The notes below the pieces were generated by a model. That model had not been told where the DNA came from. It did no database searches and was given only the letters and a program-made list of their open reading frames with translations. From IMG/VR virus record IMGVR_UViG_3300023174_003158, positions 29,229 through 93,228 of that record: a stretch of 64,000 bases of DNA. One strand, given 5' to 3'. The first letter of the stretch is position 1. Each line of letters opens with the position of its first letter. The position numbers and the translations under genes were made by a program. Shown here in pieces: positions 1,132 to 60,102 of this stretch. The stretch comes from a virus.

Positions 1132-4100
1132 TTATGTTACAAAACTTATTAAAACGCCGCTTGTTCCTGTTAATCTATTATATGCTGCAATGCCTGCCGC
1201 CGATGTTGGTGGTGTGGTTGCCCCTTCATATTCTAATTCTATGAGTTTATTATTTACCCATGTTTTACCCGTTAAATCAATAAGTATGTTATCAACTGCG
1301 GTTAAACTAAATCCATAACTTGAACCCAAATTGGTAATTTTAACATCTGACATAGAACTATACCAATTATATGGTGATGTATATCCTGTTATTGTATTAT
1401 TACCACCAAAACTAACACTTGATAATGCGTTAGTAGGGAAATCACTTAAACTTCCGTCCACAGTATTATTACCAAACAAACTTATATTTCTTAATGCTGT
1501 TTTACTTGTTATTGATGTTGTACTTCCACTTATTGTATTACCTTCATAAAGAGCTAAACTTATCATCTTTATTGGAATATTTGAAATATTCCCACTAATT
1601 GGATTTGTTCCTCCACTAATTTGGAATACTAATAAATCTGTCATTACTGCCAAATCACTAGTGTTACCCGAAATAGCATTATACGCACCTAACAAAGAAA
1701 CTTCTGTCATACCTGTTGAGAAATCACTAGTTAATCCTGAAATACCCGATGTCCCATATAAATAAAGAATTTTAACTGTTTTAGGAACATTACTAACTAA
1801 ACCTCTAATAGAACTACCACTACTTCTTATGTTTACTGTAACCGCACTAGCAGGTATCCCCGTGGTGTTACCCGTAATTATACTGTTACCAACAATAGCA
1901 AGTGTTGAAGTAATTCCACTTGGGGTATCCGCAATATCACCTGTTATCGTATTATTACCAGTAATTAAACAATAATTCAAAGCAGATGGGATATCCGCAG
2001 TATTACCCGACAATGTATTATTACCAGCAATTGAAAGTGTACTTAAAGTAGAGTTATGTGGTAATCCCACAACATTACCTGATATTGTATTATTACCAAG
2101 TATTGCAAGGTAATACATACCACTTGGTCTAGGTACACCTGTTGAATCCCCACCAATTGTTGTATCACCCCAAATAAAAGTGTATGTTAGTCCTGTAGGT
2201 AAATCACTAACACCTCCAGATAAATTATTTTTATTTGTTTGTAAAGTTGTTAAAGTTCTTGGTAGTTGCGATGTAACACCACTAACATAAGCATTTCCAC
2301 TATTTGAACCTGCAGGGTCTAAATTAGGGCCAAATTCAAGTCTTGTTAACCCATTAAGCTTACTCATTTCAGCCGTCGTAAATGTTAATCCTGATGATGT
2401 TGCACCTGTTATGGTATTTGTTATCGTTATTCTCGTTATAGTGGTTAAATCTATTGAATTGAATGTTATATCACCCGTATATAGTGATGAATATATGTGA
2501 CTTATCGTATTCGTTCCTGACGGATACGTGTTGGATGTTGAATCACCCCAATTTACCACAGTAGGAGTAGAGCTCACCCATGTTGCAAATGTAACCGCAG
2601 ATAAATTAAATGCCTTCATTGTGAACGATTCCAACGGTCGTGTTATTGTTGGTGTCTGCGTTGGTGTACTTGTTTTTGTTGGTGTTTGAGTTGGAGTGCT
2701 TGTTTTTGTTTGGGTTGGTGTTTTGGTAGTTGTTGGTGTTGGTGTCTGGCTTGCAGGAATACATCCCGCCGGACTACCAAATATTCTTTGTATATTTAAA
2801 ACATTTGAGTTTGAACTTAATGTGTTATCATCTCTATCGTATTTAAAACAAGATTGTATAATACCACCATTATTAGAATTGATAGTCCCATAGAAATAAA
2901 TTCCGGGTAACAAATCAATCGTTCCAAATATTAAATTGTCTGAGGTATAATGTTCCAAAGATGTTGAAACATCAATCAATACTCTTGTTGTAGGACACTC
3001 CAAAGTTGGGTCAAGGTATTCAAATGTTGCTCTTGCAGATATACCGACTTTATTTGGTGGTGTTGTTGTAGGTGTTGGAGTAACTGTTGGTGTCGGTGTT
3101 TGCGAAGAATTAAATATTGAAAAATTCATTCCAACGTTATATACCGGACTATTTGATGGTGTTGGAGTTACAAAATTATATGTAAATGTAAAACTAACGG
3201 CACTTTGAGGAACAAGATTAGTCGGTGTTGGTGTTACAGGAAAATCGCAATCAAAATATGCAACAAAATCAAATGTTTCACAATTAACCGGCGGTGTTGG
3301 TGTAGTACAAATCCCTCCAACAAATATATTACTATCCAAATCCGGACAATTAGAATAACAAGGTCTCTTACCTTGCAAAGAACAAACACCACCCAAAGAT
3401 GTACTTAAACACCATTCATTATTAGTATAATATATTAACCCATTATTAACACTATCCCCTGTATAATATAACCTACCGTTATAATTAGTTAGTGTTGAAC
3501 TGTATGTACCATTAAATCCCGTTAAAGAAATTAATTTAGTATCAAAACAAAAATTGGTATATTCACAAGGTAAAGGTGTTGGTGATGGTGTTGGAGTGAT
3601 TGTTGGTGTTGGTCTTGGAGTTTGTGTCGGTGTTGGTGTTGGTTCACAAAAATCACAACTTTTAAACTGAGGCGACCCTAAATAAGTTCCGCCCGCCCCT
3701 CCGAACTCCAAAAATGAATAACAAATTCCGTTATCAACATATGTGGCACCTAAGAAAGCAGTATCTGAATCAACATTATAATAATGTACGGTTCCATCCG
3801 AACATCTATACATCACCGCAGATTGAATTGTTGTCCTAGGACATATATTATCAAAACAATCCGAAGCCAAAGTAAACGTAACTCCGTTTCCATCATATAG
3901 TAATCCAACACCAGTGTATGTAACTATTGTCGCACATCCCTCAAATTCACCAAGACCTTGAATATAATAAGTTGCCCCGGTTGTTGATGGAATACCATTT
4001 CCCGCAAATCTAAAAACATTGTTTCCGTCCTCACAACTTCTAAATTGTGTTTGTCTTAACCCTGAAGGGGTAATACTAGGTGTAACCGTTTTAGTTGGAG

Positions 4101-13002: not shown

Positions 13003-14701
13003 TAAAAGGTTTAACAGGTTCGTTTATACCATCTAAGAAATTATTTGAATCTTTACCTTCAGGAAAAAATCTAAATATCACCTCTTGAAATGGATAATGT
13101 GATTTATTTACAAAGGGGAAATCAACCCCCCGACCCAACTCATCTCTATATCCATAAGTATACAGGTCTCTCCATCTAAATTCTTGGTCGGATGGAGAGT
13201 AATAAGAATAAAAAGGAACTTGGTCTACATTTTCAACTCCACCCGTCTCTATATAATTAGAAAAAACCCTTATCTTCATCCCGTTATGTGGACTATAATA
13301 AAACCCATTCTCATTTGTTGTTGGCGTATTTGATGTTTTAAAATTGTCTTGATTGTATTTTACCTTGTGGTAGTATTTTGATATAACTCTCTCCACTTGC
13401 TCGTAATCATTCCATTCGCAAAAATCCCCCTCTATCACATCCCCAACATTTAAATTGTTATTATAATAAAAGGTTTTAGTATTACCACTAGAATCTGTTT
13501 TTGTATATGATGAAGTTTGAATATTTGTATTTGAATCAACATTATTATCATCCCACCACGAGCTCGGAGTTTCATTTATATTAAACTCCCACCCTTGTTT
13601 TAAACCTACCCCATTGATAAATGGTTTATTAAAATACCCGGAAAATCCTTTATTTACTACCGTCAAAAAAAGTTCACTGACAGGTCTTTTTTGATTGTCT
13701 AACAACCCCTGTAAATTAATATCTTTTATTGTTGTAAACGTATAACAATTATTACTATTTTGTTGTGCCGTCTTAGTTCTCAAATCCGGAGTTATTGAAC
13801 TCAAAAAAAGTTCTATTTTTGTATTAAATGGTGTTTGCTGAAATCCTGTTTTATTTAAAATCATATCATCAACACCAATTAAAACCTTATGTTCTCTAAT
13901 ATAATATTTTGAACGAGACTCATCTATTATATCAGGATATAAAACTCTTTTAAACCTTCCTCTTTTTTTGTCGTTGAATGTTCCCCCTGTATACCCAATG
14001 TTGTATAAATTAAAAATCCTAATATCACTCTCAAATAACCCATTACCTAACGAATAAACTTCAAAAATTTTATTTCCATTATATGGAAAAGATAGTTCGA
14101 CAGATTCTCCCGGCGTTAATCCATGTGGAGAAATACACTCAAAAGATATTAACGGGTCACCATTTATTTGAATATTTTTAATTGCAAAAGGTATCCCATC
14201 CTTCACGTTCCAAATAAAAGTTTGATTATTTAGTTGTGATGTCAATAATTTATTTTCATCATTACGATATGGATAAGTAATATAATAAGACCAATTATAC
14301 GTATACGCACTTTTTGATATAAAATTAATATGTTGGTCTACAACATTAGGTCTTAAAAAATCAAACTCATAATATTGAGGATAACCATACCAAGTACTCA
14401 TATTATTTAAAACCGTTTGTTCCGGGTCTACCAAAAACAAATTATTTCTAAATGGAACATAGTTTGCGGTACCAACATATCTATTATCATAGATATAATT
14501 CAACTGGAACGTAGGTCTAAAAATCTCACAACTTTGCCTTTCATCATCATACAATTGTGATAACGATACTGTCCTTATTCTATCAAATTCATTATTTAAT
14601 TCGACAGTATTATTTAAACTAATAGCAACCTTTTGGTCTGTAGATGGTGCAGATTTATATCTTAATCTACTTGGTACTATTCTCGAATCAAATTGTTTCA
14701 A
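12986..14701 (-). CDS. Baseplate-associated protein, unknown (571 aa)
   Basis: Not recognised by family. Aromatic-rich with many Tyr-Asn and Phe-Asn patches and a Ser/Asn-rich stretch in the C-terminal third, typical of beta-structured virion proteins. The start at 14701 lies inside the last codons of the 1844-aa gene (14-nt overlap), and its end overlaps the next gene by 17 nt. Context supports a wedge-periphery or short-fibre role. Confidence 0.6.
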   Translation of the reverse strand: MKQFDSRIVPSRLRYKSAPSTDQKVAISLNNTVELNNEFDRIRTVSLSQLYDDERQSCEIFRPTFQLNYIYDNRYVGTANYVPFRNNLFLVDPEQTVLNNMSTWYGYPQYYEFDFLRPNVVDQHINFISKSAYTYNWSYYITYPYRNDENKLLTSQLNNQTFIWNVKDGIPFAIKNIQINGDPLISFECISPHGLTPGESVELSFPYNGNKIFEVYSLGNGLFESDIRIFNLYNIGYTGGTFNDKKRGRFKRVLYPDIIDESRSKYYIREHKVLIGVDDMILNKTGFQQTPFNTKIELFLSSITPDLRTKTAQQNSNNCYTFTTIKDINLQGLLDNQKRPVSELFLTVVNKGFSGYFNKPFINGVGLKQGWEFNINETPSSWWDDNNVDSNTNIQTSSYTKTDSSGNTKTFYYNNNLNVGDVIEGDFCEWNDYEQVERVISKYYHKVKYNQDNFKTSNTPTTNENGFYYSPHNGMKIRVFSNYIETGGVENVDQVPFYSYYSPSDQEFRWRDLYTYGYRDELGRGVDFPFVNKSHYPFQEVIFRFFPEGKDSNNFLDGINEPVKPFIDDCE

Positions 14702-22149: not shown

Positions 22150-22617
22150 TTAAATATTTATTATTACAAAATCACTTTGAGAGAAGGTTGAAGAGTCTGT
22201 AGAATAATCAATCCTAATTTTTGCCGTATAGTCCGCAGTACCTTTACCCGGTACTCTAAAAATATATGGTAATTCGTCAGATTTTATATTTTGAGCCCCA
22301 ATTGGACCTTCATCCTCAATACTCGCCGGTTCTATCGTTATACTATTAACAATTAAATTCGGCATAAAAGAATTTATCGCGTCTCTAATATCTGTCTCTA
22401 TTGCACTAAAAGTTAAATTATCAAAAGGTTCAAATATAAATTCATATATTCTTGTACCAAATGTTGGTAAATAATAACGACTACCTCTTCTAGTTAAAAT
22501 TAAATGTAATAGTGCAGCTCTAACTTCATCTTTTTGGAATTCCGTTAATTGTAAATAATCTCCTTTTCTAGAATCTCTAAACGGAAAATTTATACCATAT
22601 GTTATACCTTCTGCCAT
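22150..22617 (-). CDS. gp25: Baseplate wedge protein, gp25/GpW family (155 aa)
   Basis: Matches the GPW/gp25 family: FPFRDSRKGDYLQLTEFQ at the N-terminus, then LLHLILTRRGSRYYLPTFGT with the conserved turn of the family, and a C-terminal strand region. T4 gp25 (132 aa) sits in the wedge core and nucleates sheath polymerisation. It immediately precedes gp6, as in many contractile tails. A TATTTAT box lies exactly 4 nt before the ATG. Confidence 0.9.
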   Translation of the reverse strand: MAEGITYGINFPFRDSRKGDYLQLTEFQKDEVRAALLHLILTRRGSRYYLPTFGTRIYEFIFEPFDNLTFSAIETDIRDAINSFMPNLIVNSITIEPASIEDEGPIGAQNIKSDELPYIFRVPGKGTADYTAKIRIDYSTDSSTFSQSDFVIINI

Positions 22618-29747: not shown

Positions 29748-30242
29748 TTATCTTCCAGAACCAAATCCAGTCCATGCGTTAACAGGACAACCATATCTCC
29801 TACTTCTTACTCCCGTAATTAAAACAATTAACAAAATTATTGCAAACCCTATCACCCAAACCATTTCACCTTTGTCAATCCCCTCCTTAATAGATTTCTT
29901 ACTTTTTCTTAAATTTAATAATTTTCTTAACTCACTTTTCAAACTATCTTTATTATCCTTTATACTACAAAAATAATTTTTAACTTTTTCTTCTAATGCT
30001 TTGACATCCACATTTTTATTTGTACTTGGCTCCGGTCCTACTGAATATGTTTTTTCCATATTTTCTAATTCGTCGTCATCTGCAAGTGTAACTAAACTAA
30101 TCCCCGGCAATCCATCACTCGTTAACATAGAATTAATTTCTGATACCGCTTGTTCCGCAGCCACATTTTGTTCCGATTCCTTTATTACTCTTCTAACCAA
30201 TCTTGTTAAATCGTTTTCCGTTAATCTTATAATTTTTCCCAT
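29748..30242 (-). CDS. Single-pass protein with N-terminal targeting-like peptide (164 aa)
   Basis: Begins with IIRLTENDLTRLVRRVIKES, an amphipathic basic helix. It ends in I-K-E, which fits the (I/L)-x-E cleavage rule of T4 prohead protease and its capsid-targeting peptides. The middle is charged and probably coiled. One transmembrane segment lies near residues 128-145 (VWVIGFAIILLIVLITGV), followed by a basic Gly-rich tail. Similar N-termini recur in large phages of Bacteroidetes, as far as I recall. It could be an internal virion protein; function is inference. It has its own box and terminator. Confidence 0.65.
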   Translation of the reverse strand: MGKIIRLTENDLTRLVRRVIKESEQNVAAEQAVSEINSMLTSDGLPGISLVTLADDDELENMEKTYSVGPEPSTNKNVDVKALEEKVKNYFCSIKDNKDSLKSELRKLLNLRKSKKSIKEGIDKGEMVWVIGFAIILLIVLITGVRSRRYGCPVNAWTGFGSGR

Positions 30243-46782: not shown

Positions 46783-48525
46783 TTAACTAATTTTTAAACT
46801 CTTTTTAAGATTGGTAACCGCATTAGCGTCCATGTTTGTTAATGCATTATAAACCGCTCGTTTGAAATCCGGTGTATTTAAATAAGCCTCTATCTGTGTC
46901 GTGTTAGCATTTCCGGCCTCTACTTTGAATTTTATTTCGCCGGAAACATTAGTATTTTGTTCGACAGATACCTTATTGTCTCTTGTTTTTGTAGATTCAA
47001 CTTTACCTGTTGATTTTGATGGTTCTAATATTTTTGACTTGTATGCACTACCTTTATCTATAACATTCTCTTTTAGTTTTATCATCGTTTCTTTTATCTT
47101 TTCAAGTCCTTGACCTTCAAGGTTTTTCATTTGACTATTAAATAAATCACCCAATTCAGCAACTCGTTTTGAATCCACATTACCCGATGTCAATTCTTTA
47201 ATTGCCCCTAACATAGTTGATACTGCAGTTTCAGTCTCTTTTCTTACGCCATCTTGGGTTGGAAATGCCTTTGCAATTATATCTGTTGATGAAGTTGTCA
47301 CATCTCTTATTAACTTTTCAGTTTCCATTATTTGTTTTGCAGTCGCAGCCCCACTCTCTAAATTAACTCTTATATAATGTAAATCAGCCTGAACTATATC
47401 CATGGTTTTCATTTGACCTCTAGCATAATCTTCTAAAGTTTTTGGACCTTCTTTTTGTTCTTTAATTAATTTATCCATTTGTTGTTGGCTTAAATCTGAT
47501 AATTTTTTCTTTTCTATATCTCCTTTCTCATTCGTAACACTAACTTCATATTCACCACTTTTACCCATCCGTGCAATGTTTGATAATAATTGTTTGTCTT
47601 CCTCGCTTTTGAAATTAATTGACGGATTTATTTGTTTTAAAGCGGCACTTAAGTTAGCCGATGCCAATGCGGATTTAGATAATGACTCATAACTTATACC
47701 AGTTTGTTTCGCCAATTCCCTCATTTGCAACATTCCTTCAGGACTTATTTTGAATGTTTTTGTCTTATCATCAAAATAACTAAATTTTTCGGTCATTTGA
47801 CCTAAACTCTTTTGTAGTCCTTCGGGGTCGTTAAGCGACTTATACATCAACTGAAATGGGTCAGTTAGGTCTCCAGCAGTAACACCCATTCTTTGGAATG
47901 CAGATGATAACTCTATAGCCCCTTCTGGGTCAAGAGCTTTATTCATAAGTGTAAATGTATCACTCATATCAAACCTAAAAATTGAAGCTTGAGCAGCCAT
48001 TTTTGTTAATCCCTCAACACCGTTTGAGAAATTAAATTTATTCATCATAGCCATGTTATTGGTGACATCACTCATAATTTGTTGCGTATTAAGACCTAAT
48101 GTTCTTACATAATTCATTGATTTTTGTATTTCTTCACCGGCTTGTGCGAATTGAACTCCGACATCTGTTAAACTAGAAACAAGTTGTCTAACATCAGAAT
48201 AAGGACCTAAAACTTTCGACGCAGCATATAATTTACTAACGTCTTCTTGTGCCGCCAATACGTTTCTTCGAGTACCTAACGCAATGTCTTGCATAGTTCT
48301 AACAGCGTCGTCCATATTCCCACCTAGCTTAGTCACCGCAGCGTTCGCATACCCAAGAGCTTTTTGCATTTCATTAATCCTATCTCCACCCTGACCAAAG
48401 GTACTATTTAAATTTCTTGCAGCACCTTGTAATTCACCCATCGCTTTTAAAACGTTAGGCATATACTCATCACTAAGTTTTTTAAAACTTTCTTCTAAAC
48501 CTTTTGATTTTTCATCATCTGCCAT
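46783..48525 (-). CDS. Tail tape measure protein (580 aa)
   Basis: Largely helical, with long heptad-like stretches from residue 10 onward (SFKKLSDEYMPNVLKAMGEL) and few aromatics, typical of tape measures. Length is close to T4 gp29 (590 aa), which predicts a tail of similar length if the rule holds. The C-terminal 80 residues form a more folded domain. It sits downstream of tube, gp26-like and a 42-aa gene, the usual order. Its own TATTTAT box and a preceding terminator make it the head of a new unit with the 1666-aa gene beyond. Confidence 0.75.
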   Translation of the reverse strand: MADDEKSKGLEESFKKLSDEYMPNVLKAMGELQGAARNLNSTFGQGGDRINEMQKALGYANAAVTKLGGNMDDAVRTMQDIALGTRRNVLAAQEDVSKLYAASKVLGPYSDVRQLVSSLTDVGVQFAQAGEEIQKSMNYVRTLGLNTQQIMSDVTNNMAMMNKFNFSNGVEGLTKMAAQASIFRFDMSDTFTLMNKALDPEGAIELSSAFQRMGVTAGDLTDPFQLMYKSLNDPEGLQKSLGQMTEKFSYFDDKTKTFKISPEGMLQMRELAKQTGISYESLSKSALASANLSAALKQINPSINFKSEEDKQLLSNIARMGKSGEYEVSVTNEKGDIEKKKLSDLSQQQMDKLIKEQKEGPKTLEDYARGQMKTMDIVQADLHYIRVNLESGAATAKQIMETEKLIRDVTTSSTDIIAKAFPTQDGVRKETETAVSTMLGAIKELTSGNVDSKRVAELGDLFNSQMKNLEGQGLEKIKETMIKLKENVIDKGSAYKSKILEPSKSTGKVESTKTRDNKVSVEQNTNVSGEIKFKVEAGNANTTQIEAYLNTPDFKRAVYNALTNMDANAVTNLKKSLKIS

Positions 48526-50193: not shown

Positions 50194-51021
50194 TTAATTC
50201 ATTCGTTTCTTAATTCCTCCTGAAGTTGAATATGTCTTAACTATATTATCTGCTTTATTATTAAAATGCCTATTCATTACTTCAACATTTCTTATATCAT
50301 CATCAGAAAAACCAATTGAAGGTTCCGTAGGTAAAAATTTGTTTCCAATATCTTTCTTTAAAAACGCCTTTTTATTTAATTCTGAAGATAATTCTTTAAT
50401 ATAACTCACAAATTCATCCATCGCCATAACCTTTGCTTCCTCGGGATTTTTTGCTCCTTGTTCGTTTTGATATGACACAGGATAAAACTTACATAAGTCC
50501 AAATAATTTTCAATCAAATCTTTATCGGACATATCTTCTTGGTCTGTAAAATCTCTAAATTTTTTTAAATTTTTTAATAATTGTTTTTTATCAATTCCTC
50601 CAAACCCTGTTGTAATATAGTTATAAACTCCTGTTCTTAAAGTTTTTGGTGAATGACCTCTTGCGGTGATTATTGAAAAAATAGACCCGTTATTTATTGC
50701 CTCTTTAAAATCACTAAACGCCGGAGCCTCTTTGGCTTTCATAGCATCAATTAAAAATTGTTTGTCACCCTTAGTACCGAAATTTCTAAATGGGTCTTCA
50801 GCAAAGTTCACAATAACATCCCCCTTATATTTAAAGGGGTCTTTACCAATCTTAGTTCTATATTCCGCAAAATCCTCAGTTCCCATACCAACTTCATCAC
50901 CATCTTCATTTTTTAAAATAATTTTGGTTGGCATCGACACAATATTATCATCCCAATCGAACGCATAATATTTCATATCAGGAGTATCAATATCTTTAAA
51001 CCCTTCGAATAATCTTTTCAT
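50194..51021 (-). CDS. HAD-superfamily phosphatase-like protein (275 aa)
   Basis: Carries the HAD catalytic set: motif I FDWDDN with nucleophile Asp22 and acid Asp24, motif II SIITARGHS with Thr119, and motif IV IGFSDDDIRNVEV near 237-250. A cap-like region lies between motifs I and II. The family removes phosphate from nucleotides, sugars, proteins or nucleic-acid ends; the substrate here is unknown. The N-terminal MKRLFEGF offers an L-F-E site like those of prohead-protease substrates. It sits between tube and sheath genes, an unusual place for an enzyme. It starts 4 nt after a TATTTAT box. Confidence 0.75.
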   Translation of the reverse strand: MKRLFEGFKDIDTPDMKYYAFDWDDNIVSMPTKIILKNEDGDEVGMGTEDFAEYRTKIGKDPFKYKGDVIVNFAEDPFRNFGTKGDKQFLIDAMKAKEAPAFSDFKEAINNGSIFSIITARGHSPKTLRTGVYNYITTGFGGIDKKQLLKNLKKFRDFTDQEDMSDKDLIENYLDLCKFYPVSYQNEQGAKNPEEAKVMAMDEFVSYIKELSSELNKKAFLKKDIGNKFLPTEPSIGFSDDDIRNVEVMNRHFNNKADNIVKTYSTSGGIKKRMN

Positions 51022-56594: not shown

Positions 56595-58352
56595 ATGGAA
56601 ACAAGTTTAGAGTCAAGAGCAATAACTATTCTTGAAACTTATGAAGGTGGTAATAACTATATTTTAGAATTAAAAAGAAAATCACAGATAAATAAAAAGT
56701 TTTACCCCACAAGAAGTCAAGCAGAGTACATAATTAATAATCACAATAAACAACCAAAGGTTGCAAGAAAGTGGGCGGTTCTTGATGATTATTTCGCACA
56801 AAAATTTGCAGATGATAAATTATATCCCGTAACCCCCGAAAAAGTTTATGTTGAAAAGATATTGGCGGAAAAAGAAAAGGCATATCACATTTGGGGTAAG
56901 ATGTTTGAAAGAGAAGAACTACACGAATTTTGGTTACCAAAGGCGTCAATCATAAAAGACAATACCGTTAAAGATGTTGTCATTGATTATGAAAAATATT
57001 CTCATCGTCCACCACTTACACATCAAAAAGAATCAATCCAAAAATTAGTTGAAAATAAAAAGTTTATCCTCGCCGATGATATGGGTTTAGGTAAGACAAC
57101 ATCAACAATTATTGCCGCACTTGAATCGGGGGCGAAAAAGATTTTAATTGTTTGCCCTGCAACTCTTAAAATAAATTGGAAGAGAGAAATTGAGAACTAT
57201 ACTGACAGAAGTATCTTTATTGCCGAAAGTAAAAGTTTTTCAACCGAACATGATTTTGTTATCATCAATTATGATATTATTAAAAACTTTCATAGTACCA
57301 AAGAAAAGAAGAACTCGGATATGATGAAAGCGAATTTTGATTTGGTAATTGTTGATGAGGCACATTATATAAAGAACGCTCAGGCCAAAAGAACAAAACT
57401 TATAAATGATATTGTGAAAGATATTGATAGGTTGTGGTTATTAACCGGTACTCCAATGACATCTCGTCCAATTGATTATTACAATTTATTAAGTTTAGTT
57501 GATTCTCCCGTTGCCAAAAATTGGATGGCTTATGTTATAAGATATTGTAATGGATTTCAATTTAAAGCCGGACCAAGAAAAGTTTGGAATGTTATGGGTG
57601 CAACAAACCTTGAGGAACTAAGAGATAGAACGTCAGGTACGATACTTAGGAGACTCAAGGAGGACGTTTTAGATTTGCCTGATAAGATTATCACACCAGT
57701 GTATTTAAGGTTAAAATCAAGAGAATATGAGGAGATAATGGGTGAGTATTATGATTGGTACGATAAAAATCCCGAAGAATCAAAATCACTTACGGTTCAA
57801 TTTTCAAAACTAACAAAAGTTAGACAAGTTATTGCAAATGAAAAAATAGGACAGACAATTGAACTTGCAGAAAATATATTAGAACAAGATAAGAAAGTTG
57901 TTATATTCTGTAATTTTACTGATTCATTAAATAGAATCGTGGAACATTTTGGTAAATCCTCAGTTAAGATTGATGGCTCAATGTCAAAAGATAATAGACA
58001 ACACTCAGTAGATGAATTTCAAAATAATCCAAAAGTTAAAGTTTTAGTTGGTAATATTAAAGCTGCCGGTGTTGGGATTACCCTAACATCGGGTGAAGCG
58101 GTTATTATGAATGATTTGTCTTTTTTACCCTCCGACCATGCACAGGCAGAAGATAGATGTTATAGATACGGACAAAAAAATAATGTATTAGTTTATTACC
58201 CCATTTTTGAGAATACTGTTGAAGGTGTTATATACGACATAATAAATGCAAAGAAACAAGTTATTGCAACCGTAATGGGTGATAATCAAAACTCGGCCGA
58301 TTCCGCAGAAGAAATATTACAAAGAATTAACGATTTGAGAAATAAAAGTTAA
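56595..58352 (+). CDS. SNF2-family DNA helicase / annealing helicase (585 aa)
   Basis: Superfamily 2 ATPase of the SNF2/SMARCAL1 branch, the likely counterpart of T4 UvsW in remodelling stalled forks and recombination intermediates. Motifs: I DDMGLGKTT at 161-169, Ia CPATLKINWKREIE, II DEAH at 254-257, III LLTGTP at 282-287, V VGNIKAAGVGITLTSG, VI QAEDRCYRYGQ. The N-terminal 140 residues are an accessory domain without recognised family. It is one of few + strand genes, with a sigma70-like promoter, consistent with early expression. It converges with the 145-aa gene, overlapping 4 nt. Confidence 0.9.
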   Translation: METSLESRAITILETYEGGNNYILELKRKSQINKKFYPTRSQAEYIINNHNKQPKVARKWAVLDDYFAQKFADDKLYPVTPEKVYVEKILAEKEKAYHIWGKMFEREELHEFWLPKASIIKDNTVKDVVIDYEKYSHRPPLTHQKESIQKLVENKKFILADDMGLGKTTSTIIAALESGAKKILIVCPATLKINWKREIENYTDRSIFIAESKSFSTEHDFVIINYDIIKNFHSTKEKKNSDMMKANFDLVIVDEAHYIKNAQAKRTKLINDIVKDIDRLWLLTGTPMTSRPIDYYNLLSLVDSPVAKNWMAYVIRYCNGFQFKAGPRKVWNVMGATNLEELRDRTSGTILRRLKEDVLDLPDKIITPVYLRLKSREYEEIMGEYYDWYDKNPEESKSLTVQFSKLTKVRQVIANEKIGQTIELAENILEQDKKVVIFCNFTDSLNRIVEHFGKSSVKIDGSMSKDNRQHSVDEFQNNPKVKVLVGNIKAAGVGITLTSGEAVIMNDLSFLPSDHAQAEDRCYRYGQKNNVLVYYPIFENTVEGVIYDIINAKKQVIATVMGDNQNSADSAEEILQRINDLRNKS

Positions 58353-58786
58353 ACTTCTATTGTAAATAATTTAGGTTCATAAGTTGCAACATAACCCCCC
58401 AATCTTAATCTTGAACCTGATTTTATTACTGTTAAAATGGATATATCCAACTCAGATAAAATTTCGTGTCTTTCGATAATACAACCTAAAGTCAAGTATT
58501 CATTTTGTTTATCCAATATTTGAAACTTGAACCCGGGACCTGGTTTAAAATTATTTCTTTTATCCGAGAATATTTTTATCATTTTAGTTGTTGCTCTTTG
58601 GCACAAATCTTCAATCTCCTTATCATCCACATTTGAAAGATTTCTTTTATCCGACATCCTGTCATAGGCGTGGGGAGAAATATACCAAGTAATAATTGGG
58701 GAAAAATATGCATCAGTTTGGAAGGGGGTTGACTCAGGGTTTATCCACTCCTTCAATAATTTTTTAATTACATTTTTTATACTCAC
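58349..58786 (-). CDS. Unknown protein with GTG start (145 aa)
   Basis: I choose GTG at 58786 over an ATG at 58858 because the longer reading passes through a perfect terminator stem (58802-58825), and because a TATTTAT box lies exactly 4 nt before the GTG. The protein starts SIKNVIKKLLKEWINPEST, then ISPHAYDRMSDKRNLSNVDD, and ends in two short beta segments (GSRLRLGGYVATYEPKLF). The HAYDRM motif followed by helices resembles small toxin-like or nuclease-like folds but no catalytic set is complete. Function unknown. Confidence 0.6.
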   Translation of the reverse strand: MSIKNVIKKLLKEWINPESTPFQTDAYFSPIITWYISPHAYDRMSDKRNLSNVDDKEIEDLCQRATTKMIKIFSDKRNNFKPGPGFKFQILDKQNEYLTLGCIIERHEILSELDISILTVIKSGSRLRLGGYVATYEPKLFTIEV

Positions 58787-58790
58787 AAAT

Positions 58791-58797
58791 ATAAATA
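58791..58797 (-). promoter_or_regulatory. TATTTAT box 4 nt from the GTG start
   Basis: Spacer AAAT on the + strand; abuts the terminator tail of the candidate RNA. Confidence 0.5.
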
Positions 58798-58825
58798 TAA
58801 AAAGGGGAGTAAAAAAATACTCCCC
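58797..58825 (-). terminator. Terminator of the candidate small RNA
   Basis: AGGGGAGTA (58802-58810) and TACTCCCCT (58817-58825) form a perfect 9-bp stem with a 6-nt loop, followed on the minus strand by a run of T. Confidence 0.9.
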
Positions 58826-58906
58826 TATTAAAATATGTGGTTTAGATATTGGTTTCAAAACAATTCAGGAGACCACTAACCTTGAATTACCTTATTGAAA
58901 CCGTTT
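58797..58906 (-). ncRNA. Candidate structured small RNA (about 110 nt)
   Basis: A minus-strand unit with promoter, structure and terminator but no reading frame. P1: GGUUUCAA (58901-58894) pairs with UUGAAACC (58857-58850). P2 inside it: AAUUCAAGG (58887-58879) pairs with CCUGAAUU (58868-58861), one A bulged. The 10-nt P2 loop contains GUGGU (58875-58871), complementary to ACCAC (58840-58836) in the linker before the terminator, so an H-type pseudoknot can form. The 5' end is placed about 6 nt after the promoter box and the 3' end at the terminator U-run. No known RNA family recognised. Coordinates may be off by one. Confidence 0.6.
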
Positions 58907-58911
58907 ATAAC

Positions 58912-58942
58912 ACAAAGATAAAGTAAAGATTTGAACTAACAA
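58912..58942 (-). promoter_or_regulatory. Bacteroidetes-type promoter of the candidate RNA
   Basis: Minus strand TTTG (58942-58939), 19 nt, then TATCTTTG (58919-58912). This is a full match to the Bacteroidetes consensus TTTG / TAnnTTTG with the usual spacing. It points leftward into the structured region, away from the + strand neck gene. Confidence 0.7.
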
Positions 58943-58966
58943 AAAAATTTTTATTTGAAATCATAA

Positions 58967-58973
58967 TATTTAT
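58967..58973 (+). promoter_or_regulatory. TATTTAT box 4 nt from the neck gene start
   Basis: Spacer AAAT to the ATG at 58978. Same geometry as on the minus strand, showing the box follows gene orientation. Confidence 0.5.
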
Positions 58974-58977
58974 AAAT

Positions 58978-60102
58978 ATGTCAGTAATCCAAGAACCAGA
59001 AAGGTCAAAAATTTATACAAGAGTTAAACATCTTCTCGGTGCACCTATTAGAAGTATCGAAATTGAAGATGAAATGATGGATTCCTTAATGGAATTATCA
59101 ATCCAAGATTACGAACAATATATTCAGGATTGGTTAATTGAAACCAATTGGACTAATTTAGTTAATCTTGATATGAGTAAACAATCTGTTGCAAACGCTC
59201 TAATAACTAGAACATTTGATTTTGAGAAGCAATTCCAATTCGCATATTCAAAAATAGTTGGACTACAACAAGTAGGGCCTTGGGCGTTAAAACAAGATTA
59301 TTTTGATTTGGTTGAAAATCAACAAACATACGAAATACCGGCAGGTAGAGAAATTAATGAATTATTGTGGTTTAGTGATAGACCGTACGGAATTTTCGGA
59401 CAAATGGGGTTGGGAGGTTTTGGATTTGGATTTGATGGTGCCGGTCTTGGAGCGAATCAATCGGGATACGCACAATTTGGAGGACAAGGTTCATATTTTA
59501 TGATGTCCGGATTTGATTACTTAGTCAGGGCACAGGAGTCAAATATACTTAGCAGAATATTTGGTGCGAATTTAACATACAGAGTTACCGCACTTCCTGA
59601 TGGTAAAAAATTAATCCACTTAATGAATACGCCTGGTGGTAGATTTAATTGGTCGAACTATAGTTCTTATTCAGGTAAAAAAGTTTGGTATTGGTATTAT
59701 GAGGTTGATGGTAGAGATAGAAATGATTGTTTAAAATTAAATCCTGACATCGTACGTTTACCCTCGGATGTTCCATTGGAGGCCATTGGTTGGAACGATT
59801 TAAATGAACCCGCTAAGCAATGGGTTAGAAGATGGTTTACCGCATATGTTAAAGAAACGTTAGGTAGAGTTAGAGGAAAATATAGTGGTAATTTAAAAAC
59901 GCCCGACTCTGAAATACAAATGGATTATACAAGTCTTTTGACCGAAGGTAAAGATGAAAAAACAAAACTAGAAGAAGAGTTAAAATTAAGATTAGAAAGA
60001 TTAAGACCGGAAAAACAAATGGAAAAAGAAGCATTGATTGCGGAAAATCTTAACAAACAACTTAAATTTAGGGCTTTCCAAAGGCAAATATATGTTATAT
60101 AA
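58978..60102 (+). CDS. Putative neck / head-tail connector protein, gp13-like (374 aa)
   Basis: An N-terminal helical domain (KIYTRVKHLLGAPIRSIEIE then MDSLMELSIQDYEQYIQDW) resembles head-tail connector proteins. A Gly-rich insertion follows at about 140-180 (GQMGLGGFGFGFDGAGLG), and then a central domain with NEPAKQWVRRWFTAYVKETL. The C-terminal 70 residues are a charged helix (KLEEELKLRLERLRPEKQ). Plausible partner of the gp14-like protein, but on the opposite strand. The Gly/Phe/Gln-rich stretch is odd for a neck protein. gp13 identity is inferred from domain layout. Confidence 0.6.
   Translation: MSVIQEPERSKIYTRVKHLLGAPIRSIEIEDEMMDSLMELSIQDYEQYIQDWLIETNWTNLVNLDMSKQSVANALITRTFDFEKQFQFAYSKIVGLQQVGPWALKQDYFDLVENQQTYEIPAGREINELLWFSDRPYGIFGQMGLGGFGFGFDGAGLGANQSGYAQFGGQGSYFMMSGFDYLVRAQESNILSRIFGANLTYRVTALPDGKKLIHLMNTPGGRFNWSNYSSYSGKKVWYWYYEVDGRDRNDCLKLNPDIVRLPSDVPLEAIGWNDLNEPAKQWVRRWFTAYVKETLGRVRGKYSGNLKTPDSEIQMDYTSLLTEGKDEKTKLEEELKLRLERLRPEKQMEKEALIAENLNKQLKFRAFQRQIYVI

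Follow-up and report, generated by a model that had tools for sequence, protein, structure and literature searches.

Two divergent genes of a large phage are separated by a gap (58787-58977) that, read from its sequence alone, looked like the site of a small RNA gene, and the question is whether it encodes such an RNA, forms part of the gene that follows, or holds no functional RNA. The stretch of DNA analysed here (64,000 nucleotides, referred to as the window) comes from an IMG/VR phage record of 93,228 bases. The gap measures 191 nt, from the GTG of a minus-strand open reading frame (ORF) at 58786 to the ATG of the plus-strand neck gene at 58978, agreeing with the 190 nt of the sequence-only reading. 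The elements described in that reading are all on the minus strand and in their places, following one another as promoter, nested helices (P1 and P2), ACCAC-containing tail and terminator, and only the length of P2 had been misread (Table 1). It had overlooked that a 145-aa ORF begins 17 nt after the terminator, and that this ORF has a late-type promoter motif. On balance, the gap is best explained as a stand-alone small-RNA gene in an accessory cassette of an uncultured large contractile-tailed phage, separate from the ORF.

Table 1. Features of the gap and the adjoining ORF, in minus-strand order (window positions).
Feature	Position	Strand	Basis or remark
Host-type (Bacteroidetes sigma-A) promoter TTTG-N19-TATCTTTG	58913..58943	-	A/T tract immediately upstream
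Predicted small RNA, ~111 nt	58798..58908	-	Promoter and terminator positions; no ATG; only open frame scores non-coding
Predicted hairpin of P1 (8 bp) enclosing P2 (9 bp, with one bulged A)	58851..58902	-	Minimum-energy and centroid structure
ACCAC, candidate pseudoknot partner of loop GUGGU	58837..58841	-	Sequence; 9 nt past P1
Intrinsic terminator AGGGGAGTA-TTTTTT-TACTCCCCT then TTTTTATATT	58803..58826	-	9 perfect pairs, 5 G-C
TATTTAT, late-promoter-like motif of the ORF	58791..58797	-	Ends 4 nt ahead of GTG; overlaps terminator tail
Orphan accessory ORF, 145 aa, GTG start	58349..58786	-	Same inserted cassette as the RNA; no known family

Promoter, terminator and coding potential

The promoter agrees with the published consensus for the Bacteroidetes sigma factor σABfr, which has TTTG at −33 and TAnnTTTG at −7 (PMC7366714), and this agreement puts the likely transcription start near 58908, 5 nt beyond the −7 element, and gives a transcript of about 110 nt when the 3′ end is placed in the U-tract. 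In its loose form, TTTG-N18-20-TANNTTTG, the motif occurs in the window at chance level (3 observed, 2.7 expected), so that motif matching by itself proves nothing. The strict form, TTTG-N18-20-TATCTTTG, has 22 forward matches against 3 for the reversed control across 50 records (the window's genome and 49 related phages), most of which lie about 20 nt ahead of start codons or ahead of tRNA genes, and all three perfect copies of the TATCTTTG type in the 93-kb record are intergenic, in a genome with a non-coding share of about 4.6-5%. These two counts lift the promoter beyond chance; the full TTTG-N19 promoter of the sequence-only reading is present, and its class is genuinely host-type and validated across the related phages. 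The other copies in the record are all about 20 nt ahead of an ATG, and at the RNA locus no ATG follows the promoter. A 53-nt match (83%) in Leptolyngbya phage Lbo-JY46 (PP438436.1) corresponds exactly to the promoter and its upstream A/T tract, and was rejected as a homologue of the RNA since it covers the promoter only.

Several further observations concern promoters of this class. In a relative, G014, the end of the contig (L119, 1-371 and 1190-1261, minus strand) carries a GOLLD RNA (RF02032, 251.8 bits) along with a tRNA, downstream of a host-type promoter and a structured stretch beginning TAGTCGTTTGGGG. A leader of the form TATTCACAAAA(C)A...ATG, immediately following the TATCTTTG element, is common to several host-type-promoted genes (position 3056 of the window's record, G000; positions 13522 and 41284 of G014), which suggests a conserved 5′ UTR. 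The start of G000, outside the window, carries two Rfam-matched tRNA genes (L117, 1694-1793 and 2026-2119, minus strand), one of which is tRNA-Glu(ctc) according to ARAGORN; the same program calls an unassigned tRNA at 1301-1386 of L117. Lbo-JY46, whose recorded host is cyanobacterial, carries perfect Bacteroidetes-type TTTG-N19-TATCTTTG promoters; the host assignment may be mistaken, or a co-cultured Bacteroidetes may be the source of the phage.

The terminator consists of a perfect 9-bp stem, as had been reported, with a U6 loop and the tail UUUUUAUAUU, and its T-run is found on the minus strand only; it is canonical, correctly oriented with the RNA and above chance. No co-directional gene intervenes before the next minus-strand gene 1.5 kb away, so the terminator can serve only the RNA or antisense read-through. 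In Bacteroides thetaiotaomicron, eight of the nine small RNAs validated by northern blot had both a promoter and a Rho-independent terminator (PMC7366714).

The earlier claim that no reading frame fits the stretch holds with one caveat, a frame that is opened by TTG at 58858 and runs into the ORF. Its 24 codons ahead of the GTG score as non-coding (−0.06 per codon), in contrast to the ORF itself, which scores like its neighbours (+0.23 per codon). The RNA stretch has no ATG, and no leader-peptide ATG.

Fold, homologues and distribution

P1 (GGUUUCAA/UUGAAACC, 8 bp) encloses P2, which has 9 bp in two blocks (7+2) with one G-U pair and the bulged A, and closes a 10-nt loop, UUAGUGGUCU, that includes GUGGU (58873-58877). 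With the terminator, the whole stretch folds better than 200 of 200 shuffles (z −3.7), mostly by the terminator's contribution; the core without it reaches z = −1.5, with equally good folding in 40 of 500 shuffles and in 7.75% of 2000, and 4.6% of shuffles contain helices at least as long as P1 and P2. Folding of the plus strand is as good as that of the minus, which is what simple inverted repeats would give. The two nested helices of the sequence-only reading (8 bp and 8 bp with one bulge) are both there, but the second is longer than described and the fold has a p of only about 0.08. Likewise, the GUGGU and ACCAC sequences that were said to pair are both present, but a 5-bp Watson-Crick pairing between loop and tail arises in 17% of shuffles, or 2.5% when at least three G-C pairs are demanded. 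An intramolecular pseudoknot would also be sterically tight, as its 9-nt linker would have to cross about 17 bp (P1 and P2) and an internal loop while nearly fully stretched. The two-helix fold and the pseudoknot are at or near chance level, and it is doubtful that the RNA forms the pseudoknot.

Rfam searches at the gathering threshold and at E up to 10 returned chance-level matches only (LhrC, with an E of 0.11, is far below its cut-off), with no ToxI, TenpI, CptI or abiF (RF03085) match up to E 10 and no riboswitch. No tandem repeats of the type III antitoxin kind are found in the RNA, and a tRNA or tmRNA identity was rejected because no cloverleaf was found. The resemblance of GTTTCAAT...TTGAAAC to CRISPR repeats, which raised the idea of an RNA anti-CRISPR, is one of sequence only and was set aside, no Rfam CRISPR family being matched. 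When the start regions of phage mRNAs were considered as trans targets, their pairing with the single-stranded parts of the RNA was no better than in shuffles, making a host or protein target more likely than a phage mRNA.

No homologues of the RNA were found by exact and degenerate patterns in IMG/VR, by blastn against phages, plasmids and the 50 related records, or with a covariance model; an IMG/VR match (L133) proved to be a chance match to an unrelated GC-rich contig. The sole other copy, on contig IMGVR_UViG_3300022752_003244 (L002), is 100% identical over 6,435 bp. Only identical copies are thus known, with no divergent homologue that could show purifying selection or covariation in the fold and the pseudoknot.

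Together with the ORF, the RNA locus makes up about 600 bp between the helicase gene, which ends at 58352, and the neck gene. Related neck genes were compared at 80 loci: the median distance from the end of the nearest upstream ORF to the neck gene is 24 nt, and every gap is shorter than 150 nt; the 145-aa ORF is found at none of these loci, and in 26 the helicase directly adjoins the neck gene. The RNA and ORF are a lineage-specific accessory (moron-like) insertion that none of the 80 related junctions carries.

The neighbouring ORF and its late-type motif

The ORF has no match in Pfam, PHROG, PADLOC, NCBIfam, PDB, phages or plasmids, and searches that included Pfam, PADLOC, NCBIfam and PDB gave neither a toxin-family match nor a ToxN/AbiQ-fold or AbiF/AbiD sequence match. 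Homologue searches with exact peptides, the HAxxRM motif and degenerate alignments to which artificial conservative variants had been added (purely as a search device) returned only the identical contig. The predicted structure is unreliable (pLDDT 39) and fold comparison with it gave no match. A possible resemblance of the segment HAYDRM..R to DUF4258/RelE-type toxins was dropped, being without support in Pfam and with a predicted structure too poor to use.

The start context of the ORF is TATTTAT-ATTT-GTG, and it is one of six genes in the window in which TATTTAT ends exactly 4 nt ahead of the start codon. In the window, 19 of 45 genes have the motif upstream (shuffles give 2.8, the opposite strand 6), as do 35 of 142 genes in G014 (compared to 7); all 80 related loci have it ahead of the neck gene, compared to 3 on the opposite strand. 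Judged by its position, TATTTAT probably acts as the late promoter in this group of phages, which, if true, would make the late mRNAs leaderless. Further examples are found at 58967-58973 on the plus strand, upstream of the genes starting at 22617, 51021, 56543 and 63684, and upstream of many structural genes; the opening TATTT of the motif agrees with the Bacteroidetes −7 element TAnnT.

By the same positional evidence the ORF appears to have a late promoter of its own, which argues against a link between RNA and ORF as one transcript, and the RNA is probably not the partner transcript of the ORF; an RNA from a separate unit may still bind the protein of its neighbour. Terminators run straight into TATTTAT ahead of the genes that start at 48525, 51021 and 30242 as well (the upstream regions of 46783-48525, 50194-51021 and 29748-30242), so the overlap of the two is a standard separator between transcription units in this phage.

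This recurrent insulating arrangement is also what lends weight to the first alternative, that there is no functional RNA: the promoter would be real or fortuitous, the terminator would merely shield the late promoter of the ORF from antisense read-through, and the helices would be due to chance, consistent with the p-values of the core fold (about 0.08) and the pseudoknot (0.025-0.17) and with the lack of conservation. It would, however, leave a perfect promoter of the class that serves genes and tRNAs standing about 90 nt upstream of the terminator within a 191-nt gap, and the perfect copies of this promoter in the record are intergenic in three cases out of three; this alternative is considered unlikely.

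The second alternative is a module resembling type III toxin-antitoxin systems or AbiF, in which the RNA would be a protein-binding antitoxin for the 145-aa protein and leaky termination would set the ratio of RNA to toxin. Type III systems have the layout promoter-RNA-terminator-gene (PMC5086642), and in the AbiF locus of the Clostridioides difficile prophage phi027 the 132-nt RNA RCd22 ends at a terminator, with no promoter before the toxin gene (PMC12373285). The candidate shares the order of elements with both, having a promoter, a structured RNA of about 110 nt, a Rho-independent terminator and a gene that starts close after, and its RNA and ORF belong to one lineage-specific cassette. 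The likeness extends to being phage-encoded, with a promoter, an RNA of ~110-130 nt, an intrinsic terminator and a protein gene close downstream in the case of AbiF/RCd22, and to the genetic layout, together with the pseudoknot claimed for the candidate, in the case of ToxIN, TenpIN and CptIN. In contrast to ToxIN, TenpIN and CptIN, however, the candidate has no tandem repeats, no toxin homology and an unsupported pseudoknot, and it differs from AbiF/RCd22 in lacking the abiF motif, in having a single fold instead of two repeated motifs and in its unrelated ORF. None of the ToxI, TenpI, CptI and abiF families matches the RNA in Rfam, the ORF matches no toxin family and its poor model no known fold, and a late-type motif is located between terminator and ORF at the phage locus, where AbiF has no promoter. 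A module of this kind, like any functional pair of RNA and ORF, is improbable.

Slightly less probable again is a cis-acting leader or attenuator, with promoter, fold and terminator forming a regulated 5′ UTR of the ORF (riboswitch- or protein-controlled); RNA and ORF are co-directional, with the terminator ending just ahead of the GTG, and six pairs, one of them G-U, could form between UCUCCU in P2 and AGGGGA in the terminator stem as a possible weak anti-terminator, on sequence grounds, but this pairing is far weaker than the 9-bp terminator stem, neither a riboswitch match nor a leader-peptide ATG was found, and the ORF has its own TATTTAT at the standard 4-nt spacing of the phage. Also improbable, to a similar degree, is a phage cassette in which control runs, in either direction, between a host-promoted RNA with a loop-tail pseudoknot and the neighbouring late-expressed orphan protein; the two would then be a non-repeat RNA-protein pair, for toxin-antitoxin or counter-defence, whose parts are unrelated and whose early and late promoters are separate.

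A probable stand-alone small RNA and the promoter map of the phage group

For the favoured stand-alone small RNA, transcription by the host RNA polymerase and its housekeeping sigma factor would begin on the minus strand at about 58908, probably early in infection as judged by the promoter class, and would stop at the intrinsic terminator to give an RNA of about 110 nt, made up of a hairpin body of ~50 nt, a single-stranded A/U-rich tail and the terminator hairpin. The ORF would be transcribed separately, from TATTTAT as a late-type promoter overlapping the tail of the terminator, and the RNA would thus not be the leader of the ORF. As a guess, the RNA may act in trans as a regulator or decoy in early infection, via the loop UUAGUGGUCU or the tail. 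That a discrete RNA of this size is made from the locus is rather likely, given a validated promoter class and a canonical terminator, with transcription, timing and fold being predictions; of the ~110-nt RNA gene proposed from the sequence, the pseudoknot and, largely, the two-helix fold are not supported. The promoter is thus better supported, and the fold worse supported, than had been held.

The closest parallels are the intergenic small RNAs of Bacteroidetes, such as GibS and the ‘high-confidence’ small RNAs of B. thetaiotaomicron (PMC7366714), which are likewise intergenic and short, with a TAnnTTTG-type promoter and a Rho-independent terminator; the candidate differs in being phage-encoded, without a sequence relative and predicted from DNA alone. 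Like GOLLD and other large RNAs that phages encode near tRNA clusters, it is a phage non-coding RNA, and the GOLLD RNA of G014 is downstream of the same promoter class, but at ~110 nt, compared to several hundred, it differs in size, as well as in sequence and position, and there is no match between the two.

As an orphan phage small RNA, the candidate is plausible but of an ordinary kind; few small RNAs have so far been charted in phages with Bacteroidetes-type promoters. The wider value lies in the promoter map, in which host-type TTTG-N19-TAnnTTTG promoters serve genes (probably early ones) and RNA genes, and a distinct motif, TATTTAT, is upstream of structural genes; this map makes transcript boundaries predictable in a large group of uncultured phages.
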